Of a stretch of DNA of 21,264 nt, positions 2,946 to 20,336 are shown piece by piece. Made by a program: the position numbers and the translations under genes. The DNA is taken from positions 1 through 21,264 of IMG/VR virus record IMGVR_UViG_3300007539_000275. One strand, given 5' to 3'. The notes beneath the pieces were generated by a model. That model was not told the DNA's origin, made no database searches, and saw only the letters and a program-made list of their open reading frames with translations. This stretch comes from a virus. How positions within the stretch are numbered: the stretch's first letter is position 1; every line of letters starts with the position of its first letter.

Positions 2946-3032
2946 TCCGTCATTGGCTTATCGAGCTCGTCATGGTCTAATCGCATATAATTTATGAAGT
3001 AAACTAACAATATCCAAATCTTTTTTCTTCAT
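2942..3032 (-). pseudogene. Tiny membrane-peptide gene disrupted by one extra A
   Basis: From the ATG at 3032 the frame stops at 2970 after 20 residues (MKKKDLDIVSLLHKLYAIRP). If one A is removed from the six-A run after codon 2, the frame reads MKKKIWILLVYFINYM and then RLDHDELDKPMTE, ending at 2942. The repaired 29-residue frame joins its neighbours at both ends by ATGA overlaps: its start overlaps the stop of 3029-3262 and its stop overlaps the start of 2013-2945. This fits the local style and makes the repaired form more likely to be ancestral. The break may be a real mutation, a homopolymer error, or a site of transcriptional slippage. Confidence 0.5.
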
Positions 3033-3262
3033 TTCGACTTAAAGTATTTCTTAAGTTCTCGGACTTGTTCTATATCGATTTGTAATATTGCAGCAGCCCT
3101 ACGTTCTAGGTCTTCTACTTTCTTCTGATGCTCTTCATATTTTCGCCGTTTCCGTTCCTTGTCGCGCTGATATATACGTTGTCTAGCCTCACGTATCTCT
3201 TTAGGATCCATCGGCGCCCACTTAAGTTCGTCTTTATCTAGTCGTAATGGCTTCTTACTCAT
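3029..3262 (-). CDS. Small charged protein, unknown function
   Basis: 77 residues, very rich in lysine, arginine and glutamate. Residues 20-55 (from PKEIREARQRIYQRDKERK to about EDLERRAA) are expected to form a long helix, possibly a coiled coil. No enzyme motif is visible. The start lies inside the 3' end of the upstream gene at 3255-3455 (8-base overlap), which supports real translation. A nucleic-acid-binding or structural role is possible from composition only. I do not recognise the family. Confidence 0.6.
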   Translation of the reverse strand: MSKKPLRLDKDELKWAPMDPKEIREARQRIYQRDKERKRRKYEEHQKKVEDLERRAAAILQIDIEQVRELKKYFKSK

Positions 3263-3455
3263 TCAATCGTTGTTTTAAAGGTCTTGCATTGCCGTCTTCA
3301 TCCTCGAACCATATAGAATGTGCTAGCTCAATCTCTCTCATAGTAATTGAAGATGCTTTGAAATCTGCGATAGTTATATCATCAATATCGATATCAGACT
3401 TCCGTTCAATCAAATCATCACGCTTAAGTCTAATATAACGTTTAATGTACTCCAT
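3255..3455 (-). CDS. Small protein, unknown function
   Basis: 66 residues beginning MEYIKRYIRLKRDD, with a basic N-terminus and an acidic middle (SDIDIDDITIADF). Its ATG follows the stop of the 3458-3850 gene with only two bases between, and its 3' end overlaps the next gene, so it is embedded in the transcription unit. No motif, signal peptide or membrane segment is seen. A plus-strand frame covers nearly the same bases, but it runs against all the neighbours and is taken as a shadow. Confidence 0.55.
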   Translation of the reverse strand: MEYIKRYIRLKRDDLIERKSDIDIDDITIADFKASSITMREIELAHSIWFEDEDGNARPLKQRLNE

Positions 3456-3457
3456 AA

Positions 3458-3850
3458 TTATTGCTCATTAAATTGACTAAAAACTAAAGATAATGCATAC
3501 AAACTCTGTATATTCACGCAGTCATAAACAGTATCATGAACGTCGATATATGCTCGACCATCTTCTTCAAGGACAATTGAAATTCCTTCCGTTATATCAT
3601 ATATCCAATAATATCCTGAGTCATCATCATCAGTGTCTATCGTATAAAACTCCTTGCGGGCGCCTATTGATATCATAGTATCCTCTGTAACTTTATATTC
3701 TGTTAGTAGCGGCATTTGATTGACTATACTACGTACAGCTGTACCGAATTCTTGATCATTTGGTATGTCTTTCGATAAAGATTGGATTCGGAGCAGGAAC
3801 ACGCTCATACCCATTATAGTTTCAATATCCGAATCGTTTAGTTTCATCAT
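3458..3850 (-). CDS. Acidic protein, unknown function
   Basis: 130 residues, acidic overall, with a tyrosine- and aspartate-rich centre (TIDTDDDDSGYYWIYDITEG) and predicted alternating strands after it. In T4 the translational repressor RegA lies directly after gp62, and this gene occupies that position here, but no RegA sequence features are visible. The second codon is also ATG, so the start may be 3850 or 3847. It starts four bases after the gp62-like gene ends. Function unknown. Confidence 0.6.
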   Translation of the reverse strand: MMKLNDSDIETIMGMSVFLLRIQSLSKDIPNDQEFGTAVRSIVNQMPLLTEYKVTEDTMISIGARKEFYTIDTDDDDSGYYWIYDITEGISIVLEEDGRAYIDVHDTVYDCVNIQSLYALSLVFSQFNEQ

Positions 3851-14764: not shown

Positions 14765-15556
14765 TTACACGCCGCGTTCTTGATTGTACGCTATAATATG
14801 ATCGCGACCTGTCATATTATAACCATGCTCTGCTACCATTTCAAATACAATCGGGTACATTTTAATCAATGTCTCTCTCGTATCGCCTGCAGGCATAATA
14901 TATGTTTTTTCTTTTGGAATTCCTAATTCTAGCCGATAATCTTCGATTTCTTTTAAGTTATCAGCAGTACCATCCCAGACCGGTTTATAATGATAATCAC
15001 TATGGTAGTCTATCATTTTACGAATAGCATCAGTATTCATACGTAACCTATTATGAATTTTAACCATTCGGTCATCAACCGTACTACCATTAGGAGTCTT
15101 TGTTCCAACTACCGGGACAGAGTTACTAAATTTAGGACTAATCGAAATTAATCCTAGCGGATAATCTGTTTCTACATAATGAGATCCTTCTGTTTCGATC
15201 GTAACAAATATCCCACGTTCATTAGCAAAATGACTTATCTCATTTACTAGTGCTGGATGCATTGTCGGCGATCCTCCAGTCAACATCATTTCTTTAACTT
15301 GGGGATTCTCGTCATAAATTTTAATGATATCATTGAAACAAAAAGTTCCTTTCTCTGGATGTATAGATGTATACCAAGAATCGCACCAACCGCCTTCGCC
15401 GAAAAAGCAACGGTGAGTGCACGCCGTGGTGCGTACAGCAATTGTTGGCATACCTTGACGACTTCCTTCGCTCTGAACGCATCGATATATTTCCAATATT
15501 GGAAGTACTTTGTTATAATCTTCAATACGGTTCATTTTTTCTGTTAATTTACTCAT
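14765..15556 (-). CDS. queE: 7-carboxy-7-deazaguanine synthase (QueE), radical SAM
   Basis: 263 residues. It uses SAM and a 4Fe-4S cluster to turn the QueD product 6-carboxytetrahydropterin into 7-carboxy-7-deazaguanine. Visible: the substrate-loop motif VQSEGSRQGMP (27-37), cluster cysteines C46, C50 and C58 in CTHRCFFGEGGWCD, and TGGSP (93-97). The cysteine spacing CX3CX7C differs from the usual CX3CX2C. The start is at 15556, one base after the stop of the endonuclease gene, or at the in-frame ATG at 15535, which aligns with the start of the stranded second copy near 16517. Either way its translation may now depend on readout through the endonuclease gene. Confidence 0.9.
   Translation of the reverse strand: MSKLTEKMNRIEDYNKVLPILEIYRCVQSEGSRQGMPTIAVRTTACTHRCFFGEGGWCDSWYTSIHPEKGTFCFNDIIKIYDENPQVKEMMLTGGSPTMHPALVNEISHFANERGIFVTIETEGSHYVETDYPLGLISISPKFSNSVPVVGTKTPNGSTVDDRMVKIHNRLRMNTDAIRKMIDYHSDYHYKPVWDGTADNLKEIEDYRLELGIPKEKTYIMPAGDTRETLIKMYPIVFEMVAEHGYNMTGRDHIIAYNQERGV
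15449..15529 (-). repeat. queE 5' segment, copy A (in the intact gene)
   Basis: 81 bases encoding RIEDYNKVLPILEIYR-CVQSEGSRQGM. It matches copy B at 16428-16508 with 63 of 81 bases and 26 of 27 residues identical. The last 21 bases are identical, and similarity ends right after the methionine codon. Confidence 0.9.
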
Positions 15557-15557
15557 A

Positions 15558-16358
15558 TTAAGATTTTAAAATTTTTCTTATCATAGTATCAGACGTATTA
15601 AACATCTCGCCTAATCTAGATGCTGATATTCCTTGTTTACGTAACATACAAATTTTTTCTTTATTATCCCACAAGTCTTGACGTTTTTTTTGTTTTAAGT
15701 CTTTTCTACTTTTTTGTGACTCCGATGGATTTCGTTTTTTTACATTATTTTGTGTTAATATTCTACTAATCACGGACGGATGACAGTTATATCGTTTAGC
15801 TAAAACAAATACGCCATCGCCGGTATTGTATTCTTCAATGATTTGACCCGTTTGTTGTTCTACGTCTTTTCTCACAATAGCACTCCTGTATTTTTTACGG
15901 GTTAATTTATTAGATCCACTTTGAGTTCTTTTTACGTCACGTACAACCCTACGAATTAAACTAGCGTCACAATTATATAATCTACTCAATTCTTCCGCCG
16001 ATTTTCCATTTATGTATTCATTGATAATCTTTTTGCTATTATCCCATATATCTTTTCGTAAATTACTTAGCGGCGCGCCCATTACTCCACCTGTTGCCCC
16101 ATTATACGTATCTTCTCGAATTACAAATTTTTTATCAACTAATTCGGCTTCTTTTAATTCTGCTTTCTCACGAGTTTCAAATAAAAACAATATTTCTTTT
16201 TTATAGTTGTGAATACCATTCAATTTTATCTCATTTAATAACGGAACACAAGACCCCATATAATCTACATCTTTGTACGGGTTATTTGCTGTCCTTACGC
16301 CTATATAAATTTTATTATTTATTAAATTTGTTATTTTGTAAATATAATGTTGTTTCAT
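15558..16358 (-). CDS. GIY-YIG homing endonuclease inserted at the queD/queE junction
   Basis: 266 residues. The nuclease domain is N-terminal: YIY at 5-7 and YIG at 18-20, then an acidic helix (ETREKAELKEAELVD) and YNGATGG near 84-90. Three helix-turn-helix-like repeats follow, near residues 112-142 (SAEELSRLYNCDASLIRRVV), 172-201 (LAKRYNCHPSVISRIL) and 236-264 (SASRLGEMFNTSDTMIRKIL), which should bind the target DNA. It has the strongest ribosome site in the window (AGAAGGAG). It stands between queD and queE and is flanked by two copies of the queE 5' end, the footprint of its insertion. It is AT-richer than its neighbours. Confidence 0.92.
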   Translation of the reverse strand: MKQHYIYKITNLINNKIYIGVRTANNPYKDVDYMGSCVPLLNEIKLNGIHNYKKEILFLFETREKAELKEAELVDKKFVIREDTYNGATGGVMGAPLSNLRKDIWDNSKKIINEYINGKSAEELSRLYNCDASLIRRVVRDVKRTQSGSNKLTRKKYRSAIVRKDVEQQTGQIIEEYNTGDGVFVLAKRYNCHPSVISRILTQNNVKKRNPSESQKSRKDLKQKKRQDLWDNKEKICMLRKQGISASRLGEMFNTSDTMIRKILKS

Positions 16359-16365
16359 TTATAAT

Positions 16366-16373
16366 CTCCTTCT
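16366..16373 (-). promoter_or_regulatory. Strong Shine-Dalgarno site of the endonuclease gene
   Basis: AGAAGGAG, 7 bases before the ATG at 16358. Most other genes here have weak or no such site and rely on overlap with the gene before, so this one appears to be translated independently. Confidence 0.75.
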
Positions 16374-16374
16374 A

Positions 16375-16384
16375 TAATAAATAT
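16375..16384. promoter_or_regulatory. Intergenic ATAAATAT motif, site 2
   Basis: The plus strand reads TAATAAATAT (gene sense ATATTTATTA), 16 bases before the endonuclease ATG. It is identical to sites 3 and 4. Confidence 0.3.
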
Positions 16385-16418
16385 AAGGAAATTATAAAAA
16401 CATTGATGTTGTTTTGGT

Positions 16419-16517
16419 TTATATTACCATACCTTGACGACTTCCTTCCGATTGAACAGCCCTGTAGATCTCGAGTATCGGTAGTACTTTGTTATAGTCT
16501 TCAATCCGTTTCTTCAT
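16419..16517 (-). pseudogene. queE: Stranded 5' fragment of queE
   Basis: A 32-codon frame starting MKKRIEDYNKVLPILEIYR, then AVQSEGSRQGM, then VI and a stop. It repeats the QueE N-terminus and breaks off after the GM of the substrate loop. Its ATG lies inside the last codons of queD, in the typical overlapping style of this genome, so this appears to be the original queE start left behind when the endonuclease unit entered. It lacks all radical SAM cysteines and cannot be active. Confidence 0.88.
16428..16508 (-). repeat. queE 5' segment, copy B (stranded)
   Basis: Partner of 15449-15529. Differences between the copies are mostly at silent positions, and only one of 27 residues changes (C to A). 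Both copies therefore evolved under selection in separate lineages before coming together. Confidence 0.9.
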
Positions 16518-16983
16518 AAATCGAACTATTTTTATCGTTTTCAAAACATTCTACCTTAATACACTTACAACGACCGCCATCAGTTTTCGAAAGGACTTCA
16601 TTGAACTTATCAAATACTAATTTAGCACAAGACTCAGCTCCCATCTTTTCTAAGAAGTGTACTTTACATAAGCCTTCCATGGCCATTTGCTCAAACAAGT
16701 CTCTGTAAGGATCATCTCCCTGTATTAACAATGTGTGATCCCACATATGGTCCATCCAATCTTTAAGTCCATTTCCTTGTGGAGCTGGTTTGAATCCCGA
16801 GTAGTCAACTATCCAGTTCATGTCATCCAATTGCTTATCTACATCAGGCTCATTGGATGCAAACCATACTTTAAATTTAAAGGAATATCCATGTAAGAGC
16901 TGGCAATGCGAATGTTGAGCTTTCCATTGTCTAATAGCAACAGAATAATTATCGAATAGTTTCGTACTTAAATAACGTGCCAT
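16501..16983 (-). CDS. queD: 6-carboxytetrahydropterin synthase (QueD)
   Basis: 160 residues. It makes 6-carboxytetrahydropterin from dihydroneopterin triphosphate, the step between FolE and QueE. Conserved features: H24 and C27 in QHSHCQLLHGYSF, H31, then VDYSGFK (59-65), DHTLL with D82 and H83, the AES block with E117, and VECFE with E145 near the end. The third zinc ligand of the E. coli enzyme (the second H of HGH) is Y33 here (HGY). A ribosome site AGGAAAT precedes the ATG. Its last codons overlap the stranded queE start. Confidence 0.87.
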   Translation of the reverse strand: MARYLSTKLFDNYSVAIRQWKAQHSHCQLLHGYSFKFKVWFASNEPDVDKQLDDMNWIVDYSGFKPAPQGNGLKDWMDHMWDHTLLIQGDDPYRDLFEQMAMEGLCKVHFLEKMGAESCAKLVFDKFNEVLSKTDGGRCKCIKVECFENDKNSSIYEETD

Positions 16984-16995
16984 AATATTTCCTGT

Positions 16996-17142
16996 TTATT
17001 TAATTATACCTAACTTTTCGTCAAAATCTTTAGGCGTTTCTCTCAAATACTTATTGTAAAAGTATTCATCATCGAGTAAGTCATCGCCGTACTCCCCGCG
17101 AGCGTCTTCTAAACGTAAAAGAATTTCTTTTGTCTTACTCAT
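16996..17142 (-). CDS. Small acidic protein before queD, unknown function
   Basis: 48 residues, MSKTKEILLRLEDARGEYGD, then DLLDDEYFYNKYLRETPKDF and EKLGIIK. It fills the 194-base gap before queD and has codon use like the neighbours. The pattern of helical, acidic and tyrosine-rich residues suggests a small folded protein. No family recognised. Confidence 0.6.
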   Translation of the reverse strand: MSKTKEILLRLEDARGEYGDDLLDDEYFYNKYLRETPKDFDEKLGIIK

Positions 17143-17177
17143 ATCTTAATATATGAAAGATGATTCAAATAACCAAA

Positions 17178-17879
17178 TCAATCGATTACTTTTAAGTAAG
17201 TAAATAAATATGGTTTGTTCAAGTAGTGTCCTGTAAAGTAATCAATATCTACTTTATCTAAGCCGTATAATTTAGCTTTATACACTGCCTGCTCATATTC
17301 GTCTAACTTAGCCCATTCATCCTTACGAGCGACTAGCTCTGCACCTTTGGCTTGCCAATCTGTTGTTTCAATAAATGTTTCCAGCTTCTCGACAATATCA
17401 ACAAACTTATCATAATCTCTACAATCTAGTTCTATATGAAACATTTCTATAACCTGATCTTCGTCTATCCAATCGATTGCAAAATCTAATCCATACTTAG
17501 GCTTAGCAAAAACTAACTTACGAAGTTTAGGATGACGTTTGGCATGATTAACTAATTGCGTACGAGCCTTTCCGGCAAATCCAAATCTATGTAAGATATG
17601 GGCATGATCGATAAAAATGTTCGGATGATGTTCAATCTGATCATACCAATGTTGTAATACAACATTCAATGCATCGTCAGACACTCTACGTGCCATTCTA
17701 TCTTCAGTATGGATGTTAACCTCATTGACAGCATGATATTCTTTTTCAATCGAGTTAAGTTGATAGCCTTCACGATCGAAGAAATCTAATTCCCAATCAA
17801 CTGAATATTCTTCGATTGGCTTCTTGAGCCAAAGATCTTTAATGATCTTGGTTTTGTTTCTTTGAAACAGCATCGGCAA
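17178..17879 (-). CDS. Unknown protein downstream of the pterin dehydratase gene
   Basis: 233 residues, soluble, rich in charged and aromatic residues. Notable stretches are IFIDHAHILHRFGFAGKART (88-107), KPKYGLDFAIDWIDEDQVIE (126-145) and a C-terminal YFTGHYLNKPYLFTYLKV. The histidines and aspartates of the first stretch could bind metal, but no known motif is matched. The start at 17879 overlaps the dehydratase gene by 41 bases, with a second ATG at 17873. The function is unknown. Confidence 0.65.
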   Translation of the reverse strand: MPMLFQRNKTKIIKDLWLKKPIEEYSVDWELDFFDREGYQLNSIEKEYHAVNEVNIHTEDRMARRVSDDALNVVLQHWYDQIEHHPNIFIDHAHILHRFGFAGKARTQLVNHAKRHPKLRKLVFAKPKYGLDFAIDWIDEDQVIEMFHIELDCRDYDKFVDIVEKLETFIETTDWQAKGAELVARKDEWAKLDEYEQAVYKAKLYGLDKVDIDYFTGHYLNKPYLFTYLKVID

Positions 17880-18237
17880 ACTCTATATCTTTTTGTGTAA
17901 TTGCATTATGTGAATGCGAATATATTGTAATCTTTACAGTATCATATGTGAAGAAAATATCAGCATGGTGATCCATTTTTTCTGATATCTTTGCTACATC
18001 ATTAACAAATTTAAGCGTCTTTTTATAATCTTCAAATTTACTATCTAATACAATCTGTACTATACCTTTATCATTAACTTCGACTTGCCAATCTTTTGCT
18101 CCAACCTTAGATAATTGCGATGTAACTTTATCTTGCGGAATAATTACCGTATCCGGATGTTGGGTGTCTGCTAATCGACTCGCTCCGACTTTGATCGGTT
18201 CGTACGCCTGTTCTACTATCTTGCTGAGCTTTATCAT
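17839..18237 (-). CDS. phhB: Pterin-4a-carbinolamine dehydratase (PCD/DCoH) homologue
   Basis: 132 residues. The C-terminal 90 match the small PCD fold: DW at 49-50, FVNDVAKISEKMDHHADIFF (77-96) and VKITIYSHSHNAITQKDI (101-118). H90, H91 and H108 reproduce the spacing of the catalytic His61, His62 and His79 in rat DCoH. The family dehydrates 4a-hydroxy-tetrahydropterins. The N-terminal 35 residues are extra and begin MIKLSKIVEQA, similar to the start of the unrelated protein at 18807-19322. It may serve pterin chemistry linked to FolE and QueD, or a distinct role; the reaction in a phage is unproven. Confidence 0.8.
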   Translation of the reverse strand: MIKLSKIVEQAYEPIKVGASRLADTQHPDTVIIPQDKVTSQLSKVGAKDWQVEVNDKGIVQIVLDSKFEDYKKTLKFVNDVAKISEKMDHHADIFFTYDTVKITIYSHSHNAITQKDIEFADAVSKKQNQDH

Positions 18238-18806: not shown

Positions 18807-19322
18807 TCAAGCCGTATTGGCTCTTAATACAATACTATCGCCTGTCCAGTGTGTGTTTGTACGACCAATCTTCCATCCTATAGGCATATTCTTTTTAATG
18901 TATGCCATGTACAGCTTGAATCTACGATCATCATCTGCATTAGACTTTGTAGGGGACATTTCTATCTGCTTTAAATTTTTATTCTTCTTGATAACATCAT
19001 TTACAATATCTATTATAGTAGCCATTATACGAAATATATGTCCGGAATTAACATTTAATATATGCGGGTCTTGGCCTGATTCTACTTTCGATGGCCGGAA
19101 GGATATATCGCATGTAGTGCGATTTTTATCAAATGGGACTTCAACTTGATACTCGATATCAGCTCCATCTGCATCTGGATTAGGAACATCAAATGTATAC
19201 ATGTCTTCTTCAAGTTCAGATGTTACAGTAGTTTTAGGGCCAGTCCATTCAAACGGCTTAGTATTTGACTCGCCAACTTCGTTCATTATTTGTTTTATGA
19301 TATTAGATAATTTCATATTCAT
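18807..19322 (-). CDS. Unknown protein with possible capsid-targeting N-terminus
   Basis: 171 residues from 19322, or 169 from the second ATG at 19316, which is favoured because a related TGA-x-TATG context is repeated at 19967. The N-terminus MKLSNIIKQIMNE is a short amphipathic helix ending in an I-x-x-E pattern. It recalls the leader peptides of T4 internal head proteins that are cut after I/L-x-E, though this is only resemblance. The rest is a mixed fold (DMYTFDVPNPDADGADIEYQ in the middle, GWKIGRTNTHWTGDSIVLRA at the end). No enzyme motif. It directly follows the second endonuclease gene. Confidence 0.65.
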   Translation of the reverse strand: MNMKLSNIIKQIMNEVGESNTKPFEWTGPKTTVTSELEEDMYTFDVPNPDADGADIEYQVEVPFDKNRTTCDISFRPSKVESGQDPHILNVNSGHIFRIMATIIDIVNDVIKKNKNLKQIEMSPTKSNADDDRRFKLYMAYIKKNMPIGWKIGRTNTHWTGDSIVLRANTA

Positions 19323-19339
19323 TTCAACATATTTTTTAC
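19314..19339 (-). repeat. Duplicated gene end, copy in the endonuclease 3' end
   Basis: 26 bases encoding the last residues VKNMLK, the stop and the next ATG. It matches 19967-19992 at 22 of 26 positions. Confidence 0.6.
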
Positions 19340-19969
19340 ATAGATAAATTTATAACCTTTTGTAGATTTACCTCTACCATTTAATACATTACTAATGTCA
19401 GCCTGTCGTATATTAAGTGCATTAGCTGCTTCAGTCTGGCTACTGAATACGCGATTTGTGGTTGTTTCTACGATAGGAGTACGACTCTTTGATTTTTTAC
19501 CACGCTGTGATTTGCCTGGATCACCAGCTGATATCAGTTTGGATATTTCAGCAGGACTAAACTTACCGGTTTTCGTCCAATGGATTCGTTTGCTAGAATC
19601 GTATTCCTTTTTAACTCTAACAGACGCCTCCTTTTTAGCTTTATCAGACTTTTTAAAAGTTCTGCCTCCTGTGTTTTTAGGAGGTTTTGCATCAACTTTT
19701 AAGTTAGTTAATACGTCAAAATTTTCACGTATGTAATCTTCTTCTAACTTATACGCTAAATCTTCGTCTTCTATATCCTTGTGTAAAAAGATTACGCCAG
19801 GCTGTAATCCTTCTGCCTGAATACGCTTTATCTTATTTTCAGTTGGATTGTTTTTACCATTACCAGACCAGTGACCAGAGTGGCTTTTCCACCTATCTCC
19901 TTTGCCTTTACCGCAATAGAAGACTTTATCGTTATGCCTAGGGTCTGTTAATAGGTAAATATAGTACAT
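19319..19969 (-). CDS. GIY-YIG homing endonuclease with NUMOD-type DNA-binding end
   Basis: 216 residues from the ATG at 19969; a GTG at 19975 is a second option. The N-terminal nuclease has MYYIYLLTD and FYCGKGKGDRW, with EEDYIRENF as the likely acidic site and TNLKVDAKPP after it. A basic linker follows, with KSDKAKKEASVRVKKEY. The C-terminus TPIVETTTNRVFSSQTEAA (about 164-182) and NALNIRQADISNVLNGRGKS is a NUMOD1-like helix-turn-helix. It would cut a specific phage DNA site and spread its own gene. Its final VKNMLK repeats the end of the gene before it. Confidence 0.9.
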   Translation of the reverse strand: MYYIYLLTDPRHNDKVFYCGKGKGDRWKSHSGHWSGNGKNNPTENKIKRIQAEGLQPGVIFLHKDIEDEDLAYKLEEDYIRENFDVLTNLKVDAKPPKNTGGRTFKKSDKAKKEASVRVKKEYDSSKRIHWTKTGKFSPAEISKLISAGDPGKSQRGKKSKSRTPIVETTTNRVFSSQTEAANALNIRQADISNVLNGRGKSTKGYKFIYVKNMLK

Positions 19970-19992
19970 AATCACTTCAGCATATTTTTAAC
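19967..19992 (-). repeat. Duplicated gene end, copy in the upstream gene
   Basis: Partner of 19314-19339. It encodes VKNMLK and the stop of the 117-residue gene plus the ATG of the endonuclease. The match stops abruptly on the upstream side, where GPNA differs from KFIY. Confidence 0.6.
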
Positions 19993-20325
19993 AGCATTTG
20001 GTCCTGACCACATTCTGCATGACCAGTACCTAGCAGATGTCTTAGGACCGGGAGAATCACAATTATGTCTAGCACGGAATGATTTACGTCGTTCTGGATC
20101 TTTTGTCTTTATACTAAGGCCGGTCGTATCTCCAAATGATACTTTACGTACATTACCAGACTTAGGATCTTTAACATATACATAAAACTTTTTATTGCCA
20201 CCGCGTTTCACTTTATTCAACTCTACATTCCTTCCTTGATACTCTGCTTCTAATATCGGAAATGGTTTGCTAGATTCTACAATTTCTAATTTGAGTTTAT
20301 TGCTTTGAAATATAATTCGTTCCAT
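19972..20325 (-). CDS. Unknown phage protein with RKxFRARHxC...YWSC motif
   Basis: 117 residues. The N-terminal half is a small strand-rich domain (LKLEIVESSKPFPILEAEYQ; FYVYVKDPKSGNVRKVSFG). The C-terminal half has DPERRKSFRARHNC (76-89) and ARYWSCRMW (98-106), a cysteine, histidine and arginine-rich motif that I recall from marine T4-like phage proteins, sometimes attached to structural proteins. The paired cysteines could bind a metal. I give no family name. The ATG lies directly after an ATAAATAT site. Confidence 0.7.
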   Translation of the reverse strand: MERIIFQSNKLKLEIVESSKPFPILEAEYQGRNVELNKVKRGGNKKFYVYVKDPKSGNVRKVSFGDTTGLSIKTKDPERRKSFRARHNCDSPGPKTSARYWSCRMWSGPNAVKNMLK

Positions 20326-20336
20326 ATTATAAATAT
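20326..20336. promoter_or_regulatory. Intergenic ATAAATAT motif, site 5
   Basis: The plus strand reads ATTATAAATAT followed by ACTATT, which is close to the full T4 late promoter pattern TATAAATACTATT, but pointing away from the adjacent minus-strand gene. It touches the ATG at 20325. Confidence 0.35.

Follow-up and report, generated by a model that had tools for sequence, protein, structure and literature searches.

A phage homing endonuclease gene that very probably carries a replacement 5′ end for its target, queE

How does a phage come to have two 5′ ends of the same gene, one on each side of an endonuclease gene? The window (the whole 21,264-base fragment of a virus record that was analysed, a single metagenomic contig) includes the preQ0 genes folE, queD, and queE. 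By its list of open reading frames, the minus-strand order is queD, a queE stump (copy B), a GIY-YIG homing endonuclease gene (HEG), and a complete queE (copy A) (Table 1). Copy B begins with a 17-nt overlap of the queD stop, and the full queE begins one base after the HEG ends, the HEG stop touching the queE start. As we read this and related loci, the arrangement is very probably the work of a free-standing HEG that brings along a substitute 5′ end for the queE it targets.

Table 1. Features of the queE locus in the window, and genes of a second HEG-like family in other loci
Feature	Position	Strand	Basis or remark
queD (PTPS family)	16501..16983	-	ORF; PF01242, E = 4e-12; gene upstream of the stump
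Copy B, putative stranded start of the former queE; ORF of 32 codons, MKKRIEDYNKVLPILEIYRAVQSEGSRQGMVI and stop	16419..16517	-	Part homologous to copy A: 16508-16428
Terminal 21 nt of copy B	16428..16448	-	Identical to 15449-15469 of copy A
Element leader (CCAAAACAACATCAATGTTTTTATAATT...)	16359..16417	-	Homologue of the 62-nt leader in L252/L253/L371
Promoter-like ATATTTATTATA in element leader	16373-16384	-	
GIY-YIG HEG, 266 aa; nuclease domain and three helix-turn-helix-like units	15558..16358	-	PF19835, HTH_28, phrog_314
Full queE (copy A gene), radical SAM	14765..15556	-	phrog_2076 QueE, E = 9e-46; part homologous to copy B: 15529-15449
Apparently foreign 5′ end of the working queE, to about codon 56	15389..15556	-	Likelihood placement
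21 nt of copy A matching the copy B terminus exactly	15449..15469	-	
queE body	14765..15388	-	Places beside syntenic lineage (L003, L004, L017 ...)
Second HEG-like family	L385:2828-3280		Directly upstream of queE
Second HEG-like family	L391:1364-1840		Directly upstream of queE
Second HEG-like family	L156:4773-5243		Directly upstream of queE

The homologous parts of copies A and B match at 63 of 81 nt and at 26 of 27 residues (E = 1e-11 in a tblastx comparison of the window with itself), and the similarity stops at one point, right after 21 identical nt. An earlier note on this DNA had described these features, together with the overlap of copy B with the queD stop and its end after 32 codons, and all were reproduced. 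Over the first 60 nt the copies match at 42 positions, and 18 differences are ordinary for unrelated queE alleles. A tandem duplication of the queE 5′ end, followed by endonuclease invasion and divergence in place, might be suggested by two copies flanking the HEG and sharing their last 21 nt; but they differ like unrelated alleles while copy B keeps 26 of 27 residues, and in a second locus (L253, below) the copies fall into different allele groups, which leaves this history hardly credible. On the same two grounds the view of the earlier note, that A and B are diverged and not a recent tandem duplicate, holds; they are not sister sequences.

The 21 identical nt are a separate matter. Among 4330 pairs of homologues of like divergence (39-45 matches in the first 60 nt), identity at all 21 positions is found in 5, and because so few comparable pairs reach it, it is not ordinary conservation. 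The best match of any relative in the first set to this sequence is 18 of 21, and a search across IMG/VR found the 21-mer in no other contig. In the window it could be a crossover tract, or the product of later conversion between the copies; an extra assumption is needed either way.

Copy B occupies the place where a queE start would be expected. In 76 of the 149 loci having both genes, queE directly follows or overlaps queD. The 3′ end of the window queD together with copy B aligns with the intact queD-queE junctions of L131-133, L112/113, and L103 at 76-78% over 160-167 nt, with zero or one gap, copy B being contiguous with queD as queE is in those relatives; the earlier note had proposed this comparison. 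From these gap-free or one-gap alignments it follows that copy B sits at the ancestral queE start. Short queE-start ORFs of the copy B type are found only in HEG-bearing loci.

Two observations concern the surroundings of queD. In the rnr-queD-queE-groES-folE-pol position (L003, L014, L144, and others), QueD is of three unlike types, with about 40, 65, and 80% identity to that of the window, so that queD must be swapped often. Further upstream, 1029 bp of the window (17013-18041) are 90% identical to L243 (IMGVR 3300031841_003996), compared with about 70% for the rest of the window; this block is best read as a separate recent exchange with its border just upstream of queD.

The window enzyme matches PF19835 (SegE_GIY-YIG) and HTH_28 above their curated cut-offs, and the homing endonuclease family phrog_314 with E = 2e-28. 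Y7, Y18-G20, R22, E70, and N86 are invariant in the alignment of its family, the conserved GIY-YIG catalytic positions thus being present, and an AlphaFold2 model (pLDDT 74) has a GIY-YIG-like order of strands and helices. It is predicted to be a free-standing GIY-YIG homing endonuclease of the Seg type, and a cutter of the HEG-free allele. A scan with a two-sequence alignment (the window enzyme and its L094 relative) gave a family of seven members (window, L252, L253/L327, L371/L372, L358, L254, and L094); scans of IMG/VR and of GTDB contigs with single HEG sequences gave no matches. All seven lie directly upstream of queE (-10 to +8 nt), the next matches being far weaker and elsewhere. Each is preceded by a promoter-like ATATTTATWATA, and in the window an AAGGAG within the leader precedes the HEG. 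The same ATATTTATWATA is found at 1364-1375, 16373-16384, and 20325-20336 of the window and at about 80 loci, mostly on the coding strand and upstream of genes, and is probably a phage promoter.

Several other nuclease genes were seen in these genomes. A second putative endonuclease gene in the window (19319-19975), with a GIY-YIG-like N-terminus and an I-HmuI NUMOD-like C-terminus, starts beside the end of the gene at 19972-20325. Elsewhere, there are GIY-YIG genes whose ends lie 4-20 nt upstream of a gene for DNA polymerase, the clamp loader, or QueD (L141:2905-3558, L149:7400-8065, L236:9200-9805, L083:2388-3164, L085:500-1327, L126:3240-3980, and L391:140-886); no 5′ stumps were found at HEGs abutting queD, pol, or rfc in these phages. 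Within the window-enzyme family, the L371 HEG (3010-3822) is interrupted by an in-frame stop following codon 50, with an open queE downstream, while its relative in L372 is intact and 99.9% identical; the L371 gene would therefore seem to be a decaying endonuclease.

The most direct evidence for the origin of such a stump comes from L253 and L327, two contigs (that of L327 being 167 kb long) which are identical over a stump, a small ORF, a HEG, and queE. Their stump (MKRIEDYNKTLPIVELYTAVQSEGSRA) matches the start of queE in HEG-free L336 and L348 at 75 of 75 nt, and in ten others at 96-99%, as against 75% for their own queE start; the latter is instead 97-99% identical to those of the HEG-bearing L252 and L371. 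The ORF upstream of the stump continues the match, the two together being 93% identical to L348 over 280 nt, and in L348 queE is uninterrupted. Compared with HEG-free alleles, the L253 queE is 50-77% identical at first and 93-100% identical from about nt 210-240 on. Among isolates, the HEG-free Immutovirus has a queE 91% identical to that of L253.

Comparison of L252, L253, and L371 also gives the borders of what moves. Leader, HEG, and queE 5′ end are common to the three at 86-100%, with differing flanks. The left edge is sharp in three pairwise comparisons, falling 61-63 nt upstream of the HEG; in comparisons with L371/L372 the right edge is at queE nt ~135-150, L252 and L253 being similar to nt ~300. 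The mobile unit can thus be delimited as about 1 kb, made up of a 62-nt leader, the HEG, and ~140 nt of queE. The leader of the window HEG is recognisably homologous, its start lying 10 nt beyond copy B.

These loci bear on another possible history, a modular exchange in which a foreign queD and the first 27 queE codons were imported upstream of a resident intact queE, the endonuclease merely lying at the exchange boundary. The QueD type of the window (78-89% identical to L083 and others) is unlike that of most syntenic relatives, another exchange border lies at 17013 where the L243-like block begins, and phage nuclease genes often mark exchange borders (PMC10448857); copy B, moreover, has no lineage assignment (see below). 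In L253, however, the native start is that of the stump and not that of the full gene, by which exchange is largely refuted for this locus. Taken with the misfit of the copy A 5′ end to its own body and with the recurrence of the layout, both described below, this makes modular exchange improbable for the window. The preferred reading, in which a foreign queE 5′ end moves together with the endonuclease, restoring the gene and stranding the old start, had been put forward in the earlier note; it gains its support from L253/L327, where the stump is that of HEG-free phages and the working start that of HEG-bearing ones, and from placement of the window queE.

For this placement, segments of the window queE were assigned by likelihood to positions on a reference tree of 105 queE genes, nt being counted from codon 10. 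A joint tree with the queE halves as separate rows was abandoned as uninformative, rows without common columns having joined artificially. The body of the window queE is nearest to phages sharing the rnr-queD-queE-groES-folE-pol order, unlike the first ~141 nt, which place with the L056/L047/L049 clade. Forcing the 5′ end to the position of the body costs 18.4 units of log likelihood (dlnL -18.4, where windows elsewhere in the gene give -1.5 to -9.9). Two separate pieces, nt 0-60 and 81-141, agree on the placement, and the cumulative signal switches at nt 132-141. In a leave-one-out comparison, 5 of the 105 queE genes conflict as strongly as this 5′ end; with recombination of queE so frequent in these phages, the conflict reaches the 5% level against the family background and is by itself moderate evidence. 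The predicted foreign tract was found, although not its end where copy B ends: it runs ~60 nt past that point.

Copy B itself (81 nt, with nearest homologues at 75-78%) was assigned to no lineage with either of two reference sets. It is compatible with the position of the queE body, 27% of genes fitting worse. The expectation that the two 5′ segments would separate on a tree, A with a donor and B with the vertical lineage, was therefore borne out for A, which places in another clade than its own body, and not for B; that B is the vertical copy in the window is argued from its position and from the L253 case.

A reading in which the copy A gene is native throughout, and queD with copy B the sole foreign part, was considered and then dropped. 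Two other irregular queE genes may be recorded here: in L344 (4001-4777) a stop codon, which may reflect mutation, recoding, or error, falls exactly at the Q of VQSEGSR in a gene that is otherwise open, and in L142 (4776-5371) queE is in two pieces, with codons 88-144 missing.

The layout recurs. L254, whose QueE belongs to a different subfamily, has a stump (MSKIDSNKLLISSDFYSVQ followed by DK and a stop), a HEG, and a full queE, and in L385 the arrangement is repeated around a different, small enzyme; in L253, L254, and L385 the stump is separated from the HEG by other small ORFs. The ends of the four kinds of stump (VQ, SRA, SRQGM, and SRAGYP) all fall in a span of about ten codons, in a motif that aligns with the IQGEG/LQGEG of solved QueE structures. 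Enough upstream sequence was available for 198 distinct queE genes. A HEG immediately precedes 10 of them; stumps accompany 4 of these 10 and none of the other 188 (Fisher p = 3e-6). No phage was found, that is, with both copies and no endonuclease, a finding the earlier note had named as fatal to its account. Both the recurrence of the stump-HEG-queE order, with stumps ending at the same motif, and the restriction of stumps to HEG-bearing loci tell against the modular exchange considered above.

Recurrence also bears on two more technical readings. HEGs are often intronic, and the window is one contig, so that the ORF might belong to a self-splicing intron, or the layout be an assembly error; but the window region and related loci gave no Rfam match, the downstream queE is complete without splicing, and the layout is present in independent contigs, L253 and L327 agreeing in two of them. 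Either of these would be extremely surprising.

A further proposal adds to the preferred explanation and does not replace it: the stump might be retained because it has a use, such as bridging translation from queD or serving the element as its left homology arm. The start of copy B does overlap the queD stop as in intact junctions, copy B is undamaged over 27 codons, and in the model for the yeast WHO elements a gene fragment is an essential homology arm (PMC7282813). Yet an undamaged state is also expected after a recent insertion, and 6 of the 10 HEG-bearing loci have no stump, from which it follows that stumps are lost or not always formed; retention for use is a possible but rather doubtful addition.

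The small enzyme of L385 belongs to a second HEG-like family (Table 1) of ~150 aa, with zinc-finger-like cysteines and a GIY-YIG-like motif, and without a Pfam match. Its three loci (L385, L391, and L156) share a private queE start, MGQI.RMTE.EK...ELY, on native VQSEGSR bodies across two queE clades. It seems somewhat probable that 5′-end replacement is a general, repeatedly evolved strategy of phage HEGs, at least two GIY-YIG families (the helix-turn-helix type and the small zinc-finger-like type) having converged on the queE substrate motif, each with its own cut-resistant start.

One observation lies outside queE. In L310 (728-2549) a stump reading MKIKLEYVWLT and then a stop (728-763) is followed by a GIY-YIG HEG (802-1413) and a full glutamine synthetase gene (1425-2549, beginning MKIRLEYVWLD...), with 25 of 30 nt common to the stump and the gene start. 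This may be the same layout in glutamine synthetase; no empty-site relatives of this case were present among the phage records searched.

Seen in the sequences themselves are the layout in several independent phages, a stump equal to empty-site relatives (L253), a HEG and 5′ end common to differing flanks, and a chimeric queE. A series of events that would give rise to them can be suggested. In a mixed infection, the GIY-YIG enzyme would cut an empty queE at or near the codons of the conserved V-Q-S/G-E-G-S-R-x-G substrate motif. The broken 3′ half of the recipient gene would then be repaired from the donor, copying back through the donor queE 5′ end, the HEG, and the leader; the donor 5′ end is divergent, and presumably resistant to cutting. 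What had been the 5′ half of the recipient gene would end up stranded, attached to the element at its left end, the product being stump, leader, HEG, and an intact chimeric queE.

Where homing nucleases land in codons that are essential or useful, an intron or intein is normally required to spare the gene. A third solution, so far described in a few eukaryotes, seems to be at work in the phage elements: a spare, resistant gene end is brought along. With such an element type, the mosaic starts and short stumps of genes in phage genomes would be explained; if it is general, selfish nucleases could invade active-site codons of useful genes free of cost, and discordant 5′ ends of phage genes would be accounted for. 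The phage case is open to experiment because HEG-free relatives exist as isolates (Immutovirus). Modification of DNA with 7-deazaguanine is reported to protect phage DNA from restriction (PMC6884629), and elements in queE would link selfish DNA to that modification pathway.

Among known phage HEGs, SegE, SegF, and SegG of T4-like phages are alike in that an intergenic GIY-YIG gene targets its neighbour and co-converts the flanks, and a SegE-type domain is matched here; those reviewed, however, sit between intact genes and leave no stranded gene end (PMC2988022). In Aeh1 nrdA/mobE and T4 gene 60/mobA, as here, the site of HEG insertion is a part of a conserved phage gene that is critical to its function, but both halves are needed there as separate proteins (PMC2988022), whereas here queE is whole again, with one fragment left over: the downstream gene has its full length, and its first 27 codons are present a second time in the stump. 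The features are rather those of a gene-end-replacing element, a divergent working end being carried with the HEG, and the native end being stranded and, in L253, equal to that of empty-site relatives.

The closest parallels are eukaryotic. WHO elements of Torulaspora and Lachancea yeasts home into FBA1, and their HEG is accompanied by a divergent substitute for one end of the target gene; as in the phages, each insertion yields an intact chimera and leaves a fragment of the gene, its old end, stranded (PMC7282813). They differ in having intein-zinc-finger (LAGLIDADG-type) enzymes, in targeting nuclear genes, and in replacing the 3′ end, compared with GIY-YIG enzymes with helix-turn-helix units, phages, and the 5′ end here. 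In fungal mitochondria, mobile ORFs form gene hybrids in atp6 of Allomyces and in atp6, atp9, cox2, and nad3 of Glomus (PMC3630166). The resemblance to an atp6 element suggested in the earlier note is apt, though these replace 3′ ends: an endonuclease ORF lies between a foreign working end and a stranded native end, and the copies differ in DNA and little in protein. The carboxy-terminal end is the one replaced, the enzymes are mostly LAGLIDADG (GIY-YIG in atp9), and the setting is an organelle and not a phage (PMC3630166). A search of open-licence papers found no report of a queE-targeting HEG or of a phage HEG that replaces a 5′ end. The principle is thus known from WHO and mitochondrial elements; replacement of the 5′ end, in phages, by GIY-YIG enzymes appears, by this search, to be new.
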